NCBI GenBank assembly: GCA_012270585.1
Contig: JAAXIB010000014.1
Location: 62,001 to 126,000 of the forward strand
Direction: 5' to 3'
DNA length: 64,000 nt
From: Nitrospirales bacterium
GTDB lineage: Bacteria > Nitrospirota > Nitrospiria > Nitrospirales > UBA8639
Of the stretch, positions 9,788 to 34,689 are shown in pieces. The notes beneath the pieces are model-generated. The model did not search any database, was not told the origin of the DNA, and saw only the letters and a list, made by a program, of their open reading frames with translations. Position 1 is the first letter of the stretch. Each line of letters begins with the position of its first letter. The position numbers and the translations under genes were made by a program.

Positions 9788-9947
9788 AATCGGGAACGAC
9801 CGATTCGTGCTCTTTTCGTATCACTGCCAGATTCGGGATGTCGTCGGCTCTTTTCATGAACCTTGGTTTGACAAGGCCGTGTCCCACGATTAGACTGTTT
9901 TTTCAGTAAATCACCTCATTGTGCGACCAACTCCTTCACGCATACCC

Positions 9948-27328: not shown

Positions 27329-27514
27329 TTACGCAGCTTGAGAGGCAGGGTTCCGAGTGCCTCGGCCCGGCATCTCAGCCGATGGTTTTGCCGTTTTCGG
27401 ATAGACCGTTTCCCCGCAATTCAGACACCGTAAGGTCTCAATACGAAGAAAAGGGCCATCCGGATCATAAAAATGATCCCTGACCATAAAACCCTCACAA
27501 CGTGGACATTTCAT
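27329..27514 (-). CDS. Small zinc-ribbon protein
   Basis: 61 residues from MKCPRCEGF, with a GGGGGAAA ribosome site eight bases upstream. Four cysteines in two pairs (CPRC at 3-6 and CLNC about 30 residues later) form a zinc ribbon. The spacer MVRDHFYDPDGPFLRIETLRC is typical of small uncharacterised zinc-ribbon proteins. The C-terminus is basic and flexible. It lies 42 bp upstream of the sigma factor gene on the same strand, so it may lead that transcript. The longer open frame upstream of this start looks non-coding. Confidence 0.7.
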   Translation of the reverse strand: MKCPRCEGFMVRDHFYDPDGPFLRIETLRCLNCGETVYPKTAKPSAEMPGRGTRNPASQAA

Positions 27515-27826
27515 ATGGTTTCCCCCTGTTCTCGACCGTTCCGGAGTATCCGGGAATGGTCCCAAATAAATTTTTCCGCAATGCGCCGTGCGTGTTTTTT
27601 ACTAATAGCTCTATTCATAACCAGTTTGTGCAGCAAATCAAGGGCTCGGATCGATAAACGATCGAAAAGTTTTCAGGGAGGCGCCCTCGTTTGCCACCTC
27701 TCTTCCTGCTTATCATAACTATTTGATTATAAATGGAAAATAGGCCAGAAAAAATCAGACGCCAACTGCAATGAATGAAGTCTTGAGCCAATTCGCCTTA
27801 TTGCATTTCATGACCTCGTTATCGGA
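27515..27826. other. Intergenic region to the left of the duplicated ychF start
   Basis: About 310 bp, moderately AT-rich, with no open frame that looks like a gene. It separates the divergent zinc-ribbon gene from the left ychF fragment, so it probably holds the original ychF promoter. The AT-rich stretch near 27710-27750 (ATAACTATTTGATTATAAAT) is the best place for it, but I cannot define boxes. Because of the insertion, this region now drives only a truncated ychF and the island. Confidence 0.5.
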
Positions 27827-28062
27827 CTAGCCGTAGCCGAAACCGGTTTGCTAGGATGCGTCTCCCATGGAAATCGGCATTGTCGGGCTTCCCAACGTCG
27901 GCAAATCGACGATCTTTAACGCGCTGACGGCAGGAGACGCGGCCGCGTCGAACTATCCCTTTACCACGATCGAACCGAACCTCGGCGTGGTTCCCGTTCC
28001 CGACTCACGGCTGGCCCGTCTCACGGACCTGTTCAAACCGCAAAAAACGATTCCCGCCTTCT
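27827..28062 (+). repeat. Left copy of 236-bp direct repeat (5' end of ychF)
   Basis: Identical to 34454-34689 except for one base (A at 28007, G at 34634). It covers 40 bp of leader and the first 65 codons of ychF. The match stops abruptly on both sides: the base before it is A here and C in the other copy, and the base after it is A here and G there. The spacing between copies is 6627 bp. The two copies flank the AT-rich defence island. Confidence 0.97.
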
Positions 28063-28064
28063 AA
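27867..28064 (+). pseudogene. ychF: Truncated ychF, first 65 codons
   Basis: Encodes the YchF N-terminus, including the G1 loop GLPNVGKST, and breaks off after PQKTIPAF. The T that ends the repeat plus the first two bases of the island create a TAA stop at the junction. The fragment lacks the G3 and G4 motifs, the coiled-coil and the TGS domain, so it cannot be a working ATPase. It keeps its own leader and presumably the original promoter, so a 65-residue peptide may still be made. The complete gene is 6.6 kb to the right. Confidence 0.93.
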
Positions 28065-28093
28065 ACTTTCCTTTTCAACAATGGTTAGGTAGC

Positions 28094-28240
28094 ATGGAAA
28101 AGAATTTAAGAAGAAACGAAGAAATTAGTATCGATGCACTATTCAGCTCTAATGCTCAGCGAATGAGACGAGAGATATGTCTTCCAAAGAAAAAGCTAAT
28201 CCCGCAACATTGTCACGGTTTAGCAAACTGCGACACTTGA
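28094..28240 (+). CDS. Possible 48-residue ORF overlapping the NACHT gene start
   Basis: An ATG with AGGT five bases upstream opens a 48-codon frame ending inside the NACHT gene (62-bp overlap, different frame). The first 34 residues (MEKNLRRNEEISIDAL ... AQRMRREICLPKKK) look protein-like and basic. The rest runs in the NACHT gene's alternate frame. It could be a leader peptide coupling translation of the NACHT gene, the remnant of a small gene, or chance. Confidence 0.25.
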   Translation: MEKNLRRNEEISIDALFSSNAQRMRREICLPKKKLIPQHCHGLANCDT

Positions 28241-30609
28241 TGACATTTTCCGAAGATAAGTTCAGAGATTTGGTTGTAAGGCCTCTGTTCTTGCTTCAGG
28301 GCTTTAAAGATGGACGGGATTTGTGTGGACCTCACGAGCAAGGGAAAGATGCTGTTTTTGTTAAGGCAGACCCCCTGGGCAATGAAGACATTTATGTATT
28401 ACAAACAAAAAAGGGGCCTCTAAACCTTACAAAGAAAGCAAATTCTAACGTAATCGAGGCTGTGACCCAATTGAAGACTGCATTAAACACGAAAGTATTT
28501 CTAACTAAAACCAAAGAGAAGAAATTCCCGATTAAAGCCATCTTGTGTGCTAGTGGAAAAATCAATGATCATGCGCGTCAACATATTGTAGGAGAAGTCG
28601 ACGATCCAAGGATTGAATTCTTAGATGGAGATGATCTGATACCACTTATTGACAAACATCTACAGGAATTTTGGTTAGGGTTGGACGCAGAAGCGCTGCC
28701 ATACCTCAAGCACATCTCTCACAGTATTGAGTCTCTAGATGAGCATCTTACAATTTCTGACCTATTACCGGAAGACCTGACAAGAGGTGCAGCCACGGAC
28801 AAGTTATTTGTTCCTCTTTATTTATATCGAATCGCTACTGAAATTAAGAAGCATAGAGGCAAGGTGAGTCGAACCCCGGAATTCGAAACGATTCCTGTAT
28901 CCGGATTATTAAAAAAACGTGGTGGGAAATTTCTAATACTTGGAGACGCAGGATCGGGAAAGTCCACGTGCGTTAGACGTCTGGCTTACATTCTCGCTCA
29001 AGAGGGACTAAAGAGTTCAGCAGATTATAAATTGCCGATAATGCTTAGAGCATCTCAAGTAGCTGAAGAGATTTCTCAAAAGAAAAAAGAGGGAATAGCT
29101 GGAATTTGCTTGGAGGAGACCAAAAGGTTACTCAACTCATCTACTCCATGTTTTTCCATCAAGGATCTTCATGATGGCAAATTAATGATTTTCGTTGATG
29201 GCCTTGATGAAATTAGCAGTGACGTGTCAAGAAAAAATGTTCTTGATTCTATAGAACACTTTTCGAACCTTTATCCAAATTGCAAAGTACTGATTACCTC
29301 TCGTGACCATCCATCCCTTTTGATCACCATTGGAGAATCCGACTCTTTAAGAGAATATGCCACTTATTTCATTAGTCCGATTGACCTTAAACAGGCTTCT
29401 CAATTAGTTGATAAACTCAGAAAACAGAGAAACTTATCTTCTGAGAATTCAAAAGAAATAATTCGCCGGCTTCAACAAATTCATGGCATGGATTTGAACC
29501 CTCTGCTAGTTACTGTATTTGTTGCCACAAGCGATTATTCAAAGCAAGACATCCCTGCAAACATAACAGAGCTTTTTAAGAAATATGCAGAAATGATGCT
29601 GGGTCGTTGGGACGCAAGTAAAGGTTTAGCTCAACAGTACCATGCCCCGCTCAAGGATTTTATAATTACGAAAATTGCTTATGAAATGCACCGCCGCGAA
29701 GTTACCAATATTGAGCTAGAAGAATTCAAAAAAATAGCTGAAAAGGAATTAGAAAAGCGTGGGCATAGGGGCGATTTCAAACAGGTCACGGAAGAAATAT
29801 TCAGATCTGGTCTATTTCGAGTTTTTGAAAGGAGAATTGAATTTAGACATCTCTTGTTACAAGAATTTTTTGCAGGGAGAGGGATTCCAGCCAAAGAATC
29901 CCTAGAAACATTAGTTTCAAAACATTGGTGGCAAAGGGCCATCGTTTTCTACTTTGGGAATAACCCAAGTGAAATTGGTGGAATTGAGCATATTGTCAAG
30001 ACTACAGACTCAAGGCCATTACCTGAACTTTACACGGCGTCCTTAACTGTAGGATTGGCCTTGCAGGCTTGTTACTTAACTGAAGTTACAGAACGAACCG
30101 CTATATTTAAGTGGGTAATTGAAAACATTTCCAACGCAAAGGAGCCACTACAAGAATATTTAATCCATAAAGGAAGAAAATCACTCTCTGCTTTTCTAGA
30201 TTACTACCTCTTTGGTCGAGACTCTGTTGCTTTGAATTTGCTCAATGATAATTTCAATGAAATTGAAAAGGCTTTGTTAACGCCGACGATGAGTATCGAC
30301 GATAGAGATACAAGAAAATTCTGGCTAATTATTGGTCTAATTGAAAATGGGGATATGGTCAGGGCAGAGGAATTGGTCCAAGAGTTTCGCCCTAATGATC
30401 CTAAATTATTACTAGGTGTCTATCTGGGATGCTCTCTTGTAGAAAATTTACGGATAACTAGCAGATTGAATAAGCAAAAAAGTGAACGTATATGTAAGAG
30501 TCTTAAGGATGAAATTAGAGGCTTGCGTTTGCAACTTATGGACGAATTTAAGTCCGAACTCTTGGAAGTTCAGGAGGGTCAGATTCAAGCAATTCCAAAA
30601 GAAAATTAG
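28177..30609 (+). CDS. Nuclease-NACHT STAND NTPase, putative anti-phage defence protein
   Basis: 810 residues in three parts. Residues about 20-140 look like an Mrr-like PD-(D/E)XK nuclease: an acidic helix near 26, Asp58 in GKDAVF, and Q76-T-K78 in YVLQTKKG. Residues about 235-520 are a NACHT module, with Walker A GDAGSGKS at 255-262 and Walker B FVDGLDEIS (Asp341, Asp344, Glu345). The remainder is helical, with EFRHLLLQEFFAG in the NACHT-associated region and no obvious WD40 or TPR repeats. Bacterial NACHT and Avs proteins sense phage components and then switch on an N-terminal effector. Here the effector would cut DNA. Sensor specificity is unknown. Confidence 0.85.
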   Translation: MSSKEKANPATLSRFSKLRHLMTFSEDKFRDLVVRPLFLLQGFKDGRDLCGPHEQGKDAVFVKADPLGNEDIYVLQTKKGPLNLTKKANSNVIEAVTQLKTALNTKVFLTKTKEKKFPIKAILCASGKINDHARQHIVGEVDDPRIEFLDGDDLIPLIDKHLQEFWLGLDAEALPYLKHISHSIESLDEHLTISDLLPEDLTRGAATDKLFVPLYLYRIATEIKKHRGKVSRTPEFETIPVSGLLKKRGGKFLILGDAGSGKSTCVRRLAYILAQEGLKSSADYKLPIMLRASQVAEEISQKKKEGIAGICLEETKRLLNSSTPCFSIKDLHDGKLMIFVDGLDEISSDVSRKNVLDSIEHFSNLYPNCKVLITSRDHPSLLITIGESDSLREYATYFISPIDLKQASQLVDKLRKQRNLSSENSKEIIRRLQQIHGMDLNPLLVTVFVATSDYSKQDIPANITELFKKYAEMMLGRWDASKGLAQQYHAPLKDFIITKIAYEMHRREVTNIELEEFKKIAEKELEKRGHRGDFKQVTEEIFRSGLFRVFERRIEFRHLLLQEFFAGRGIPAKESLETLVSKHWWQRAIVFYFGNNPSEIGGIEHIVKTTDSRPLPELYTASLTVGLALQACYLTEVTERTAIFKWVIENISNAKEPLQEYLIHKGRKSLSAFLDYYLFGRDSVALNLLNDNFNEIEKALLTPTMSIDDRDTRKFWLIIGLIENGDMVRAEELVQEFRPNDPKLLLGVYLGCSLVENLRITSRLNKQKSERICKSLKDEIRGLRLQLMDEFKSELLEVQEGQIQAIPKEN

Positions 30610-30823
30610 CTCTCCCCTTGTCGATACTAAATTTCGCTTTCATTTACTCGTGAGTTGGAAAAACGATCCGTTGCTTGGACCGGAGTTGTAGGCGAAGCAG
30701 ACATAGCATGCCTCTCCAGAAAAATGCATGCTCGCGTTATGGTTTCAAAGTGAAATATCGTCAAATAAACCTTGACATTTGTGGTAACTCGAACGGCAGA
30801 CCTTGCCAGCCCGTATGGGACGC

Positions 30824-31762
30824 ATGATGATGTCCGATAATCCTGACAAACTGCTTGCTGACCAGTTTCGAGAATTAATGCGGCGCTACACCGGTGCCAC
30901 ACCAGATGCATTCATCGATGTTCTTTGCCCCATGTTGATTCCAATTCATAGCATAGACAAGGAGATCAAAAAGATTAGCGGCCAAAACCACTATCGGGCA
31001 TCATTTTCTGCTCAAATTACGGAGGAGAACAAGGGCATACTTTGCAGGGGACGTACAGGCAAGTTTGTACCTAGTCTATTTGCCAGTGGAGGAACTTGGA
31101 GAGAAATCGCAAAAGGCCGAATAATCGAAGTCGATGCTCTGACAAGTTTCGCATTTGGAGAAATATACACCGGAGGGCGGAAGAAGGACCTAGAAAAGGC
31201 ACTTTCAGAACTTTCCTTGGAAGATCTCCTTGAAGTTGATCAATATGGTGCCGCGGCAAAGGTGCTTAGTGGCTTGGCTGAGCATTCACTGGTAAAAAGT
31301 TTAACTGACAGGGGTTATATGGTTCGAAGGATGCCCGAAGATATGGCGAGACATCTTGGAAGTTATCCGAATTATGATTTCGAGGTATCGAAAGGTGATC
31401 AAAGCCGGAGAATAGAGGTGAAATCTCTGTGGGGTACAAACACACGATTTGCCCGGTTAATCCATAGCACGACTTCAAGGCCAAAAGGAGACCCCAGTCG
31501 TTGGACAGAAGAACAGCATCGTTGTTACTATCCGACGAGCAGTTGTAAATTTGCCACGCAAGATATTTTTGCTGTAAGTCTTTTCCTTCGAACCGGTAAT
31601 ATCCGAGATTTTGCATTCGCGCGTTCCGTCCCAAGAGACATTCAGCCACACGGGTTACCAAGGGCTTCAAATTATCCTGAGCACGTCAATCAAAATCCAC
31701 CATGTGCTGTTGGTGATGGATCATGGTTCGATACAATTGATGAGGTATGGGATCTTGCTTAG
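30824..31762 (+). CDS. PD-(D/E)XK restriction endonuclease-like protein
   Basis: About 312 residues; the frame is open from a TTG at 30803, and the ATG run at 30824-30830 with GGGA before it is a better start. Numbered from the TTG, the catalytic set is Glu160 (LAEHSLV helix), Asp192 (NYDFEV) and E205-V-K207 (RIEVKSLWG), a standard PD-(D/E)XK core in the second half. The N-terminal 140 residues are not recognised and may bind DNA or the partner. Its 3' end overlaps the opposing methylase gene by 77 bp. Together they resemble a restriction-modification pair of unusual design. Confidence 0.75.
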   Translation: MMMSDNPDKLLADQFRELMRRYTGATPDAFIDVLCPMLIPIHSIDKEIKKISGQNHYRASFSAQITEENKGILCRGRTGKFVPSLFASGGTWREIAKGRIIEVDALTSFAFGEIYTGGRKKDLEKALSELSLEDLLEVDQYGAAAKVLSGLAEHSLVKSLTDRGYMVRRMPEDMARHLGSYPNYDFEVSKGDQSRRIEVKSLWGTNTRFARLIHSTTSRPKGDPSRWTEEQHRCYYPTSSCKFATQDIFAVSLFLRTGNIRDFAFARSVPRDIQPHGLPRASNYPEHVNQNPPCAVGDGSWFDTIDEVWDLA

Positions 31763-34013
31763 ACGATTTCGCTGTGTGCCAGGACGAGATTAATTGATCA
31801 ACGGACTTTGAGAACATACGTTCTTCCTGGATCAACTTTGATCTCAAATCTCGTATTCTATTTGCCTCTTCTTGAAGCGCATGTATATCTTTTCGCGATA
31901 GAGGGAGAAGAATGTCTAGTAGACATTCTTCGTTAACTGCCGGATAAGCAATTCCTATATTGTTACGAAGAATTTGTTCATTTGCGAAGTCCGATTGAAG
32001 CAACCGTGCGAGCAGGGTTGATTCAATCCTTTTACACTGCAAGACGGCAAAGCCCGTTGAACAAACGGCTTTATCAAGTTCTCGCGGAACGACTCCAATA
32101 GTCCTGCGTTCCGGACGGACAGTGGACACTATTACGTCACCTGTTCTCACCAGCTTCCGCGCACGACTTGGCGCTTGCTCGCATTGAATGGCTTTAGCCG
32201 TAACGCCAAGGGTTCCTGAATCAACATCGGATATTTCAATATAAAAGAAGACAGATGACGCGTTGAACCGCCGGGGGTCTATGCGGGTGGTCGAAAGAGT
32301 TGCAACCTCTCGAACAAATATATCTGTCTCCTTTGGGTTCTCTATCAGGTCTGCAATTTCGTTTGATAAACCGACATGATAAGTAGCATCCCACCTAGGA
32401 ACAGTTGGTGAAATGTTCACTAATCGGCCTATCCATGTTTCACGATCTCGACTGGCCTCTGGCAGAATCTCTACCAGATCGTTTCGGCCCTTCGACACCT
32501 TTTTCCGCAGTGAAGCGCGCGTCGTTATTTCATATCCAACATCGTGGCAAATAGAAAAATAAACTTTGTCCCTGCGCACCATCTTGGTCTTTTTTGTAAG
32601 GTGCAAGACAGATGTTTTCGTCGTCGTTCCCGCTGCTCCAAAGGTCACAGGTGGAAGGGAGATGACTGAGCGAAGTTCTACTCGCGGTGAGAGTCCTGCC
32701 CTCAAATCTTGATAGATGCCGCGGTTCGTTAGAATACTGTCAGGGACGATGGCTATCAGCGTCCCCTCTGGAGTCAACCAGTCGATATATCGCTCCAAAA
32801 AGATTATTTCGGAATCAAGTGTTTTGGGTGTACGACGCAGCCATTCAGACGCTACTTTGTACTCCATAAGGGAAGCCCGCGGAAACTCAGCCCCAAACGG
32901 CGGATTCGTGAGTATCAGTTTTACCTTTCCTTCCAAGCCTGTCGTTATTTCGGCATCAAGCCCTTTCCTAGCTAAAGAATTCGCAAAATGAAGGTTCGCC
33001 GCCGGCGAACCAAAAAGCGCAAGATTAGTCAGGGAAAGACGGATCATCCGTTCACTCTTATCGATTCCTACCAGGACGGAACGGACCATCTTATTAACCC
33101 AATCATCGACACCATCCCTTCCATGCCGTTTAAGCACTTCTATGTGTAATGACTTTAGAACCTCCGTTAAAAAAGAACCAACCCCGCATGATGGGTCAAG
33201 GATTATTCCAAAATTAGAACAATTTGTGGGGTGACAAAGAGTCTCGAAATCTTGCCGTGAGAGCGAGTTGATGCCAAGCCGACTCATAAACCTGACAATT
33301 TCTGTTGGAGTCAGGTATTGCCCCAATTCCTTTTCATCAACAAAGGAATCTGTAAGGAACTGCCCAAAAACGTCATTCAAGATGTCAGCACCATCAGGTC
33401 CAGAGAAACACGCTGGGAATTGGGAATTGGAGATGCCGTCAAAACAAGAAATGATTTCATCCGCGAAAAAGTTTTCTGAATCTTTCAATCGGAGATGAAA
33501 ATCACTTGGTTTCAGTTCATGTGCAAGTGAAATGGGCAGGTGACGGCTATAGATTTTTGATATAAAATCTTTTAGTGCTTTTGCTGGCGATTTCGTATCC
33601 TTGCCTAAAGCAGTTGAAATACCGGGACCGCCGTTTTGTAACGAAATAATATGTGCAAATAACAGCTTAGATATTTCATCTAGTGCTTCATGACGTGAGG
33701 ACAGGCATCCACTTCGATGAAGCGTTTCACGGACTTCTCCTAGAGTAGTAGCAACAACGGAACGAAGATATTCATCGCGTTCGGGTTCGTGCCGGCCATA
33801 AAGAGGTAATGACTCGCAGACCGAAGAAGTAGACATATTTCCTGCTAGTTTTCGTATTTGTCCTTCAATCGAAGGTCGAGGGTGGGTTGTTCCAGAGAGC
33901 CAACGACCTACAGTGGAAGCAGAAACTCCAAGCTTTGCTGCAACGCCTGTTTGTCCAATGGGGTCAGCGGATACAAGTTCTCGTATAAGGATAGGAATAT
34001 CCGGTGTTTGCAT
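31686..34013 (-). CDS. HTH / N6-adenine methylase / type I-like specificity fusion protein
   Basis: 775 residues. Residues 10-60 form a Cro-type helix-turn-helix (GVAAKLGVSASTVGRWLSG). The HsdM-like methylase follows: GQYLTPTEIVRF at 231-242 (motif X), DPSCGVGSF at 273-281 (motif I) and NPPF at 370-373 (motif IV). From about 560 a type I S-like target-recognition half follows, ending in the coiled-coil IRDLRSKLIQEERMFSKSVDQLI. So one chain holds a possible autoregulator, the methylase and the specificity unit. No HsdR helicase gene is nearby. The only nuclease partner is the convergent PD-(D/E)XK gene. Confidence 0.85.
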   Translation of the reverse strand: MQTPDIPILIRELVSADPIGQTGVAAKLGVSASTVGRWLSGTTHPRPSIEGQIRKLAGNMSTSSVCESLPLYGRHEPERDEYLRSVVATTLGEVRETLHRSGCLSSRHEALDEISKLLFAHIISLQNGGPGISTALGKDTKSPAKALKDFISKIYSRHLPISLAHELKPSDFHLRLKDSENFFADEIISCFDGISNSQFPACFSGPDGADILNDVFGQFLTDSFVDEKELGQYLTPTEIVRFMSRLGINSLSRQDFETLCHPTNCSNFGIILDPSCGVGSFLTEVLKSLHIEVLKRHGRDGVDDWVNKMVRSVLVGIDKSERMIRLSLTNLALFGSPAANLHFANSLARKGLDAEITTGLEGKVKLILTNPPFGAEFPRASLMEYKVASEWLRRTPKTLDSEIIFLERYIDWLTPEGTLIAIVPDSILTNRGIYQDLRAGLSPRVELRSVISLPPVTFGAAGTTTKTSVLHLTKKTKMVRRDKVYFSICHDVGYEITTRASLRKKVSKGRNDLVEILPEASRDRETWIGRLVNISPTVPRWDATYHVGLSNEIADLIENPKETDIFVREVATLSTTRIDPRRFNASSVFFYIEISDVDSGTLGVTAKAIQCEQAPSRARKLVRTGDVIVSTVRPERRTIGVVPRELDKAVCSTGFAVLQCKRIESTLLARLLQSDFANEQILRNNIGIAYPAVNEECLLDILLPLSRKDIHALQEEANRIRDLRSKLIQEERMFSKSVDQLISSWHTAKSSKQDPIPHQLYRTMIHHQQHMVDFD

Positions 34014-34048
34014 AAAAATATATTACACGCCGTGAATAGAAAATGCAA

Positions 34049-34243
34049 TCATTTCAAATTCATGCCGTGGAACAATGTACGGTCAAAAGAGACCAAATCG
34101 ATAAAAGATAGCTCCTTCCGGCCCTTCATCACGATTCTACCGCCATGACCCATTCGATCGTTCACAATGAGCACTCCATCAGTCGGAGACAGCCCTTCTA
34201 TTTTCGCACTTTTTGGAAACTCTTCAGCCTTCTTGATGAGGCT
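34049..34243 (-). pseudogene. Remnant C-terminal coding fragment upstream of the methylase
   Basis: A 64-codon open frame with no good start. The translation is protein-like: GLSPTDGVLIVNDRMGHGG, then a basic turn and FIDLVSFDRTLFHGMNLK. It is cut off upstream by a stop at 34244-34246. It would end 35 bp before the methylase start on the same strand, as expected for the previous gene of an operon. I do not recognise the family. It may be the tail of a gene lost when the island edge formed. Confidence 0.35.
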
Positions 34244-34453
34244 TCAGATTCAATACGATTTGGAAATGGAACAGAATTCACCTAACCGGCAAGCTCGACC
34301 AAGTACAGGTGAGCAGCGCAGAAACCTAATGCCTTCATTCACTAGAAGCGTACATGGCAAAACGGTTAGAAACCCTTATGAACACCACATATAGTCACAA
34401 TTAGTCATATATTGCAACAATATGTAGTATGGAAATTTTGTACGGCGCAGGCC

Positions 34454-34689
34454 CTAGCCGTAGCCGAAACCGGTTTGCTAGGATGCGTCTCCCATGGAAA
34501 TCGGCATTGTCGGGCTTCCCAACGTCGGCAAATCGACGATCTTTAACGCGCTGACGGCAGGAGACGCGGCCGCGTCGAACTATCCCTTTACCACGATCGA
34601 ACCGAACCTCGGCGTGGTTCCCGTTCCCGACTCGCGGCTGGCCCGTCTCACGGACCTGTTCAAACCGCAAAAAACGATTCCCGCCTTCT
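34454..34689 (+). repeat. Right copy of 236-bp direct repeat (5' end of intact ychF)
   Basis: Same sequence as 27827-28062 with one substitution (G at 34634). Here it continues without a break into the rest of ychF. The upstream neighbour is island DNA, so the intact gene has lost its original upstream region beyond 40 bp. Confidence 0.97.

Follow-up and report, generated by a model that had tools for sequence, protein, structure and literature searches.

In this study we describe a putative defence island that occupies the 5' end of ychF in a Nitrospirales bacterium, the source genome being a 2.5-Mb draft in 89 contigs. The window, by which we mean the whole 64-kb stretch of contig JAAXIB010000014.1 that was analysed, holds a 6391-bp insert between two nearly identical copies of the ychF leader and first codons, and the gene itself remains whole. 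Encoded on the insert are a NACHT ATPase with an Mrr-type nuclease domain and what reads as a restriction-modification (RM) pair. The same three genes stand between a ychF fragment and ychF in two other species of the genus, here called G008 and G013. The reading we favour, and to which we give an even chance of being right, is that of an integrase-free defence island on which homologous recombination acts through the ychF repeats, keeping their copies alike, removing the island and probably exchanging it. Such recombination, where it joins left and right copy, would convert one by the other, or would delete the island and restore an intact ychF, while an incoming island bearing a piece of its donor's ychF would recombine into the ychF of a new host. 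In each case the right copy would provide leader and 5' end, so that ychF survives. This reading concerns the upkeep and spread of the 236-bp duplication and not its first origin.

The initial annotation had described a 236-bp duplication of the ychF 5' end around an AT-rich insert of 6.4 kb, and this description holds. Both copies consist of the 40-bp leader and codons 1-65, start 6627 bp apart and are identical at 235 of 236 positions, the sole mismatch lying at +140 from the ATG; in the 64-kb window this was the only direct repeat of at least 45 bp found with 14-base seeds. The guanine-cytosine (GC) fraction of the insert is 0.430, against 0.558 on each flank. As had also been stated, the right copy reads on into a complete YchF of 356 amino acids (aa), which scores above the TIGR00092 cut-off, and the left frame ends after 65 aa at a TAA that takes its T from the last base of the repeat. 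The three best named matches of this YchF are Nitrospirota or Nitrospirales metagenome-assembled genomes (MAGs) at 76-78% identity, followed by MAGs that have no phylum name or are labelled Elusimicrobia.

When 59 genomes, among them the window's own, were searched for YchF, at least three had a fragment of its N-terminus upstream of the complete gene, namely the window genome, G008 and G013, the start-to-start spacings in the latter two being 4.9 and 6.6 kb. Within the genus sample of 14 genomes (the family and phylum samples comprise 48 and 395) insert DNA is present in three, each time at ychF, and its sole other match, of 57 bp, is in G008. The ends of the repeat are base-identical in the three carriers, from CTAGC at -40 to the CCTTCT that closes codon 65, after which the stop follows. 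The other carriers thus share insert, site and ends but have a ychF sequence of their own. In G008 the NACHT gene is broken, its middle having been lost by internal deletion (L114 8926-9814), with the adjoining RM pair kept.

A comparison with close relatives had been proposed as a way to find the empty site, and it did find one: ychF lies next to orf78 in 7 of the 11 non-carriers (the ychF of G004 being divided between contig ends). Two more have ychF and no orf78, one contig begins just upstream of ychF, and one genome yields no full ychF match among the matches listed. The left flank of the window aligns with DNA upstream of ychF in five of nine non-carriers tested, best in G004, where the score is 172 and shuffles reach at most 25-32, and therefore left flank and ychF were once contiguous; it also aligns to the left of the left copy in both other carriers. 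With G005, G007, G009 and G002 it shows no similarity above shuffles, and the right flank has no match in any of these 11 genomes (the nine non-carriers tested and both other carriers). In G009, the SPFH gene and ychF are separated by a 4.4-kb segment (L124 2827-7216) in place of the sigma and orf78 genes of relatives; it holds an open reading frame (ORF) of 821 aa that by eye resembles an outer-membrane receptor.

Repeat divergence and leader conservation were compared over ten genus genomes, leaving out the more distant G002, G007 and G009. Across the 236 bp, the ten full ychF copies differ by 8-27 bases (median 22), so that two copies with one difference, as in the window, are not to be put down to chance. 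Left and right copies differ at 11 positions in G008, ten of them in the leader and one in the coding part, as a conversion tract would leave them. In G013 they differ at 12, of which ten lie at +125 to +188; nine of these ten left-copy bases occur in other species, and eight in G001 or G011. The protein encoded by codons 42-65 of the G013 left copy is identical to that of G001/G011, the DNA differing from each at five silent positions, and the chance of five random changes all being silent is 0.0009. This end would derive either from a working ychF of another lineage or from an ancestral stretch under constraint. Taken together, these patterns suggest that recombination acts on the repeats, and that in one case a foreign-looking ychF sequence is joined to the island. 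The initial annotation had offered homologous integration of a circle carrying a ychF piece as an alternative; this fits the mosaic copies better than an integrase island would, but not every one of them can be explained by a one-step crossover.

Synonymous divergence (dS) separates the histories of insert and flanks. Between the window and G008 or G013 the RM pair has a dS of 0.11-0.16 and the NACHT gene one of 1.2-1.3, with orf78, sigma, SPFH, Sel1 and the part of ychF after codon 65 in between at 0.38-0.85; between G008 and G013 the values are 0.16-0.19 for the RM pair, 0.22-0.27 for orf78, ychF and Sel1, and 0.45 for the NACHT gene. Since the RM values in the former comparison fall far below those of the flanks, they show that the RM half has passed between species. 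The NACHT genes of the window and of the other carriers are by the same measure old relatives, and the shift in identity falls at the start of the 319-aa gene of the RM pair. In a tree of five flank genes the window groups with G004, G006 and G010, all of them non-carriers, and G008 groups with G013 (support 0.86); a tree of ychF alone repeats neither grouping.

Several of these observations, and some others, weigh against the favoured reading. Of a reciprocal host/donor mosaic, the donor-like end is present in the G013 left copy, and a donor-like start is seen in none of the right copies. In G008 and G013 these resemble their own clade, while the window's right copy is no closer to those two, matching them at 214 and 210 of 236 positions, than to the empty-site relatives, at 211-216. 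A plain one-step crossover with a foreign circle is therefore insufficient, and later conversion must be assumed. The foreign-looking end in G013 could, furthermore, be an ancestral stretch, and the NACHT (dS 1.2) and RM (dS about 0.14) histories differ, so the island has not always moved whole. Relatives of the RM pair occur in three viral contigs without long flanking repeats (one of these, L136, is cut inside the pair), and as such the pair can also move without them. Finally, ComEC, whose presence in 13 of the 14 genus genomes leaves natural transformation possible, was not found in the carrier G013. The separate idea that the right copy travelled along with the RM pair found no support, the window's copy being no closer to carriers than to empty relatives.

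So what might the duplicated segment provide? Conservation of the ychF leader starts at the left edge of the repeat, the mean majority frequency rising from 0.62 at -50 to -41 to 0.88-0.97 at -40 to -1. As conservation begins where the repeat begins, the right copy supplies the whole conserved leader, which presumably includes the promoter. The left copy sets the same leader ahead of the NACHT-Mrr gene, whose start lies 112 bp downstream of the left-frame stop and which may use its promoter. A scan for the sigma-70 consensus counted 13 sites where the mean was 11.3, hence no excess, and placed none in the leader. Both leaders carry the palindrome AACCGGTT (27841-27848 and 34468-34475), which is present in nine of the ten genus leaders compared and once more in the window, at 2587-2594. 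Tentatively, we put forward a more specific version, in which a recombinase-free mobile defence element would have captured a minimal working ychF start, namely the conserved leader with 65 codons, and would use it as its own attachment site, relying on homologous recombination by the host to pass from species to species while ychF stays intact throughout.

The genes of the island, which are likely to act against viruses, encode three main proteins. The 810-aa protein carries Mrr_cat and NACHT domains by Pfam. The 775-aa protein joins a weak helix-turn-helix (HTH) match, below the cut-off, to an N6 methyltransferase and a type I S-like recognition domain, and its gene is convergent with that of the 319-aa protein, the two overlapping by 77 bp. 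The 319-aa protein has no Pfam, NCBIfam or PADLOC match above cut-off. A match to NOV_C below cut-off covers residues 165-216 (E 0.034), and in an alignment of four members D192 and E205-x-K207 are invariant, which we take to be the motif of a putative PD-(D/E)XK nuclease. We accordingly read this putative nuclease and the methyltransferase-specificity fusion as an RM pair, the former belonging to a nuclease-like family without a match above cut-off. Structure models of the 319-aa protein had a mean predicted local distance difference test score (pLDDT) of 53.5 and 54.5, too low for a fold search, and neither it nor the NACHT protein had a match in the PDB.

Of the 48 family genomes, three have the NACHT protein (E up to 1e-20) and three the 319-aa protein; of the 395 phylum genomes, three have the 319-aa protein and three the methyltransferase (E up to 1e-40). 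No homologue of the 319-aa protein was found in plasmid or phage collections, and relatives of the methyltransferase in the plasmid collection amount to two records, at 28% and 24% identity. In viral contigs L135, L136 and L137 the nuclease recurs at 53-61% identity, with a methyltransferase alongside on the opposite strand. It lies between the terminase and portal genes in L135, together with the methyltransferase (42% identity over residues 3-774), and follows tail genes in L136, where the methyltransferase (54% over residues 613-745) is cut by the contig end; in L137 it adjoins a methyltransferase-like ORF of 716 aa, identified by eye. Queries with the methyltransferase and NACHT proteins against viral contigs confirmed no relative, though L135 carries one of the methyltransferase.

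The most serious competitor, which we nevertheless consider unlikely, is one ancient insertion with a long target duplication in an ancestor of the genus, followed by vertical inheritance and many losses through deletion between the repeats, with only the RM half exchanged later, inside the island. It would account for the identical ends in all three carriers and for a NACHT divergence (dS 1.2) that does not fall below that of the flanks, and several left-copy bases of G013 are shared widely enough that they may be ancestral. Against this, 11 of the 14 genomes have no insert, which requires many independent losses, and an old neutral left copy should, unless conversion is frequent, have gathered many private and replacement changes, of which almost none are seen.

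That a recombinase, since lost from the island or acting in trans, brought it in by site-specific integration or by transposition seems improbable, even if a constant site with constant ends in three species is what this would produce. No recombinase was found by Pfam among the three insert proteins or the ten shorter ORFs, for which there was no match above cut-off at all. Both ends of the insert are ychF sequence, with no insertion sequence there and no transposase matched within it, and the whole assembly gave two Phage_integrase matches and one to Resolvase, all on other contigs (transposase families were not searched genome-wide). A length of 236 bp is also long for a core. A short repeat near the inner ends of the insert was considered as a hidden attachment (att) core and rejected, since it was not reproduced in the other carriers, shuffles scoring as high in 36 of 2000 cases for the window, 1000 of 1000 for G008 and 484 of 1000 for G013. 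Of the genomic island that the initial annotation saw entering the 5' end of ychF with a replacement segment, the insertion that keeps the gene whole is upheld by the empty sites and two more carriers; a conventional island of the integrase type is not, for want of a recombinase.

It is very improbable that the left 65-codon frame stays intact because it is itself under selection, whether it encodes a small peptide derived from YchF or acts as a translated leader of the NACHT gene. The frame is open in all three carriers, and wherever its coding sequence departs from the nearest functional ychF the change is silent (one in the window, one in G008, and in G013 five in codons 42-65 and one in codons 1-41). 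Conversion by the right copy predicts the same silence, however, and G008 keeps the frame although its NACHT gene is broken. That the arrangement is an assembly artefact, as a draft of 89 contigs might invite and as had been named as a possible refutation, has next to no chance of being right, the same structure with different sequence in G008 and G013 ruling out such an error.

Table 1. Features of the ychF island and its borders (positions in the window).
Feature	Position	Strand
orf78; upstream neighbour of ychF in 7 of 11 non-carriers	27329..27565	-
Left flank; homologous to ychF-upstream DNA in 5 of 9 non-carriers tested	27566..27826	none
Left repeat copy: ychF leader (40 bp) and codons 1-65	27827..28062	+
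Truncated ychF frame, 65 aa, stop at junction; same in G008 and G013	27867..28064	+
Insert, 6391 bp, GC 0.430	28063..34453	none
NACHT ATPase with Mrr_cat nuclease domain, 810 aa	28177..30609	+
Putative PD-(D/E)XK nuclease, 319 aa; no family above cut-off	30803..31762	+
Fusion of HTH (below cut-off), N6_Mtase and type I S-like recognition domain, 775 aa	31686..34013	-
Right repeat copy, continuing into full ychF	34454..34689	+
ychF, intact, 356 aa	34494..35564	+

Elsewhere in the window, an inverted repeat of 45 nt (2215-2259 and 9814-9858) is 80% complementary, its arms lying 7.5 kb apart.

A survey for islands at ychF, as the initial annotation had suggested, found the same insert in at least two other genomes, G008 and G013. 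Among 80 ychF loci of other taxa, many of them cut by contig ends, five had a second hit to the YchF N-terminus and none a near-identical 5' fragment; judged on identity, length or strand, these hits look like other GTPases, or like a complete tandem paralogue in the case of L106. We therefore rejected ychF as a wide hotspot. Defence genes spread widely, yet in many islands there is no recombinase that would account for their movement. With three carriers, several empty sites and repeat copies that record conversion and exchange, all within one genus, it becomes a testable proposition that borrowed host homology can serve as an attachment site.

Elements that integrate at the 5' end of a gene and replace it are known, SXT/R391 in prfC being an example. 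As there, the host gene is kept whole through a copy of its 5' part at the far end; the ychF island differs in having no integrase and a repeat of 236 bp. In the literature on ychF as an integration site the one relevant case found is the Streptococcus pneumoniae satellite prophage PhiBM6001.4, which, according to the available text, integrates upstream of ychF via 26-bp att sites (PMC10383233). The claim that ychF is not a classic integration site must as such be qualified by at least this one recorded neighbour, although this element, a phage satellite, uses 26-bp att sites that lie between genes and shares with our island the neighbouring gene. The viral pairs in L135, L136 and L137 have the nuclease-methyltransferase arrangement of the insert without long flanking repeats, those of L135 and L136 lying beside phage structural genes.

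The closest likeness is to RM systems inserted with a long target duplication, reportedly described by Nobusato (2000) and Furuta (2010). The available parts of several papers describe such insertions as lacking a recombinase and duplicating a long stretch of target (PMC3874152, PMC3031569, PMC1643837, PMC4978471, PMC3154945), given in one account as 'in the order of 100 bp', one of them including a Helicobacter pylori cluster flanked by a direct repeat, for which site-specific insertion was suspected (PMC4978471). This work is cited in PMC2614495 and PMC11708052, as far as their available text goes, and PMC3046158 does not use the term. A literature search for long-repeat islands with gene conversion gave no matching report. 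Shared with these insertions are putative RM genes without a recombinase and a long direct target duplication at the borders: here, 236-bp border repeats are found in three genomes, relatives have a single-copy empty site, and the insert has no transposase or integrase match. As to the RM genes themselves, the methyltransferase with its recognition domain is clear, and the nuclease is putative, proposed from the invariant D and ExK and the weak NOV_C match (E 0.034). What sets the ychF island apart is that the duplicated DNA is a housekeeping gene's leader and 5' end and that its ends coincide in three species, that its copies carry signs of conversion and a foreign or ancestral segment, and that a NACHT-Mrr gene is present in addition. 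By analogy, then, the island resembles a variant of RM insertion with long target duplication, and exchange by homologous recombination at the ychF repeats would, if true, explain how such duplications at RM systems persist and travel.

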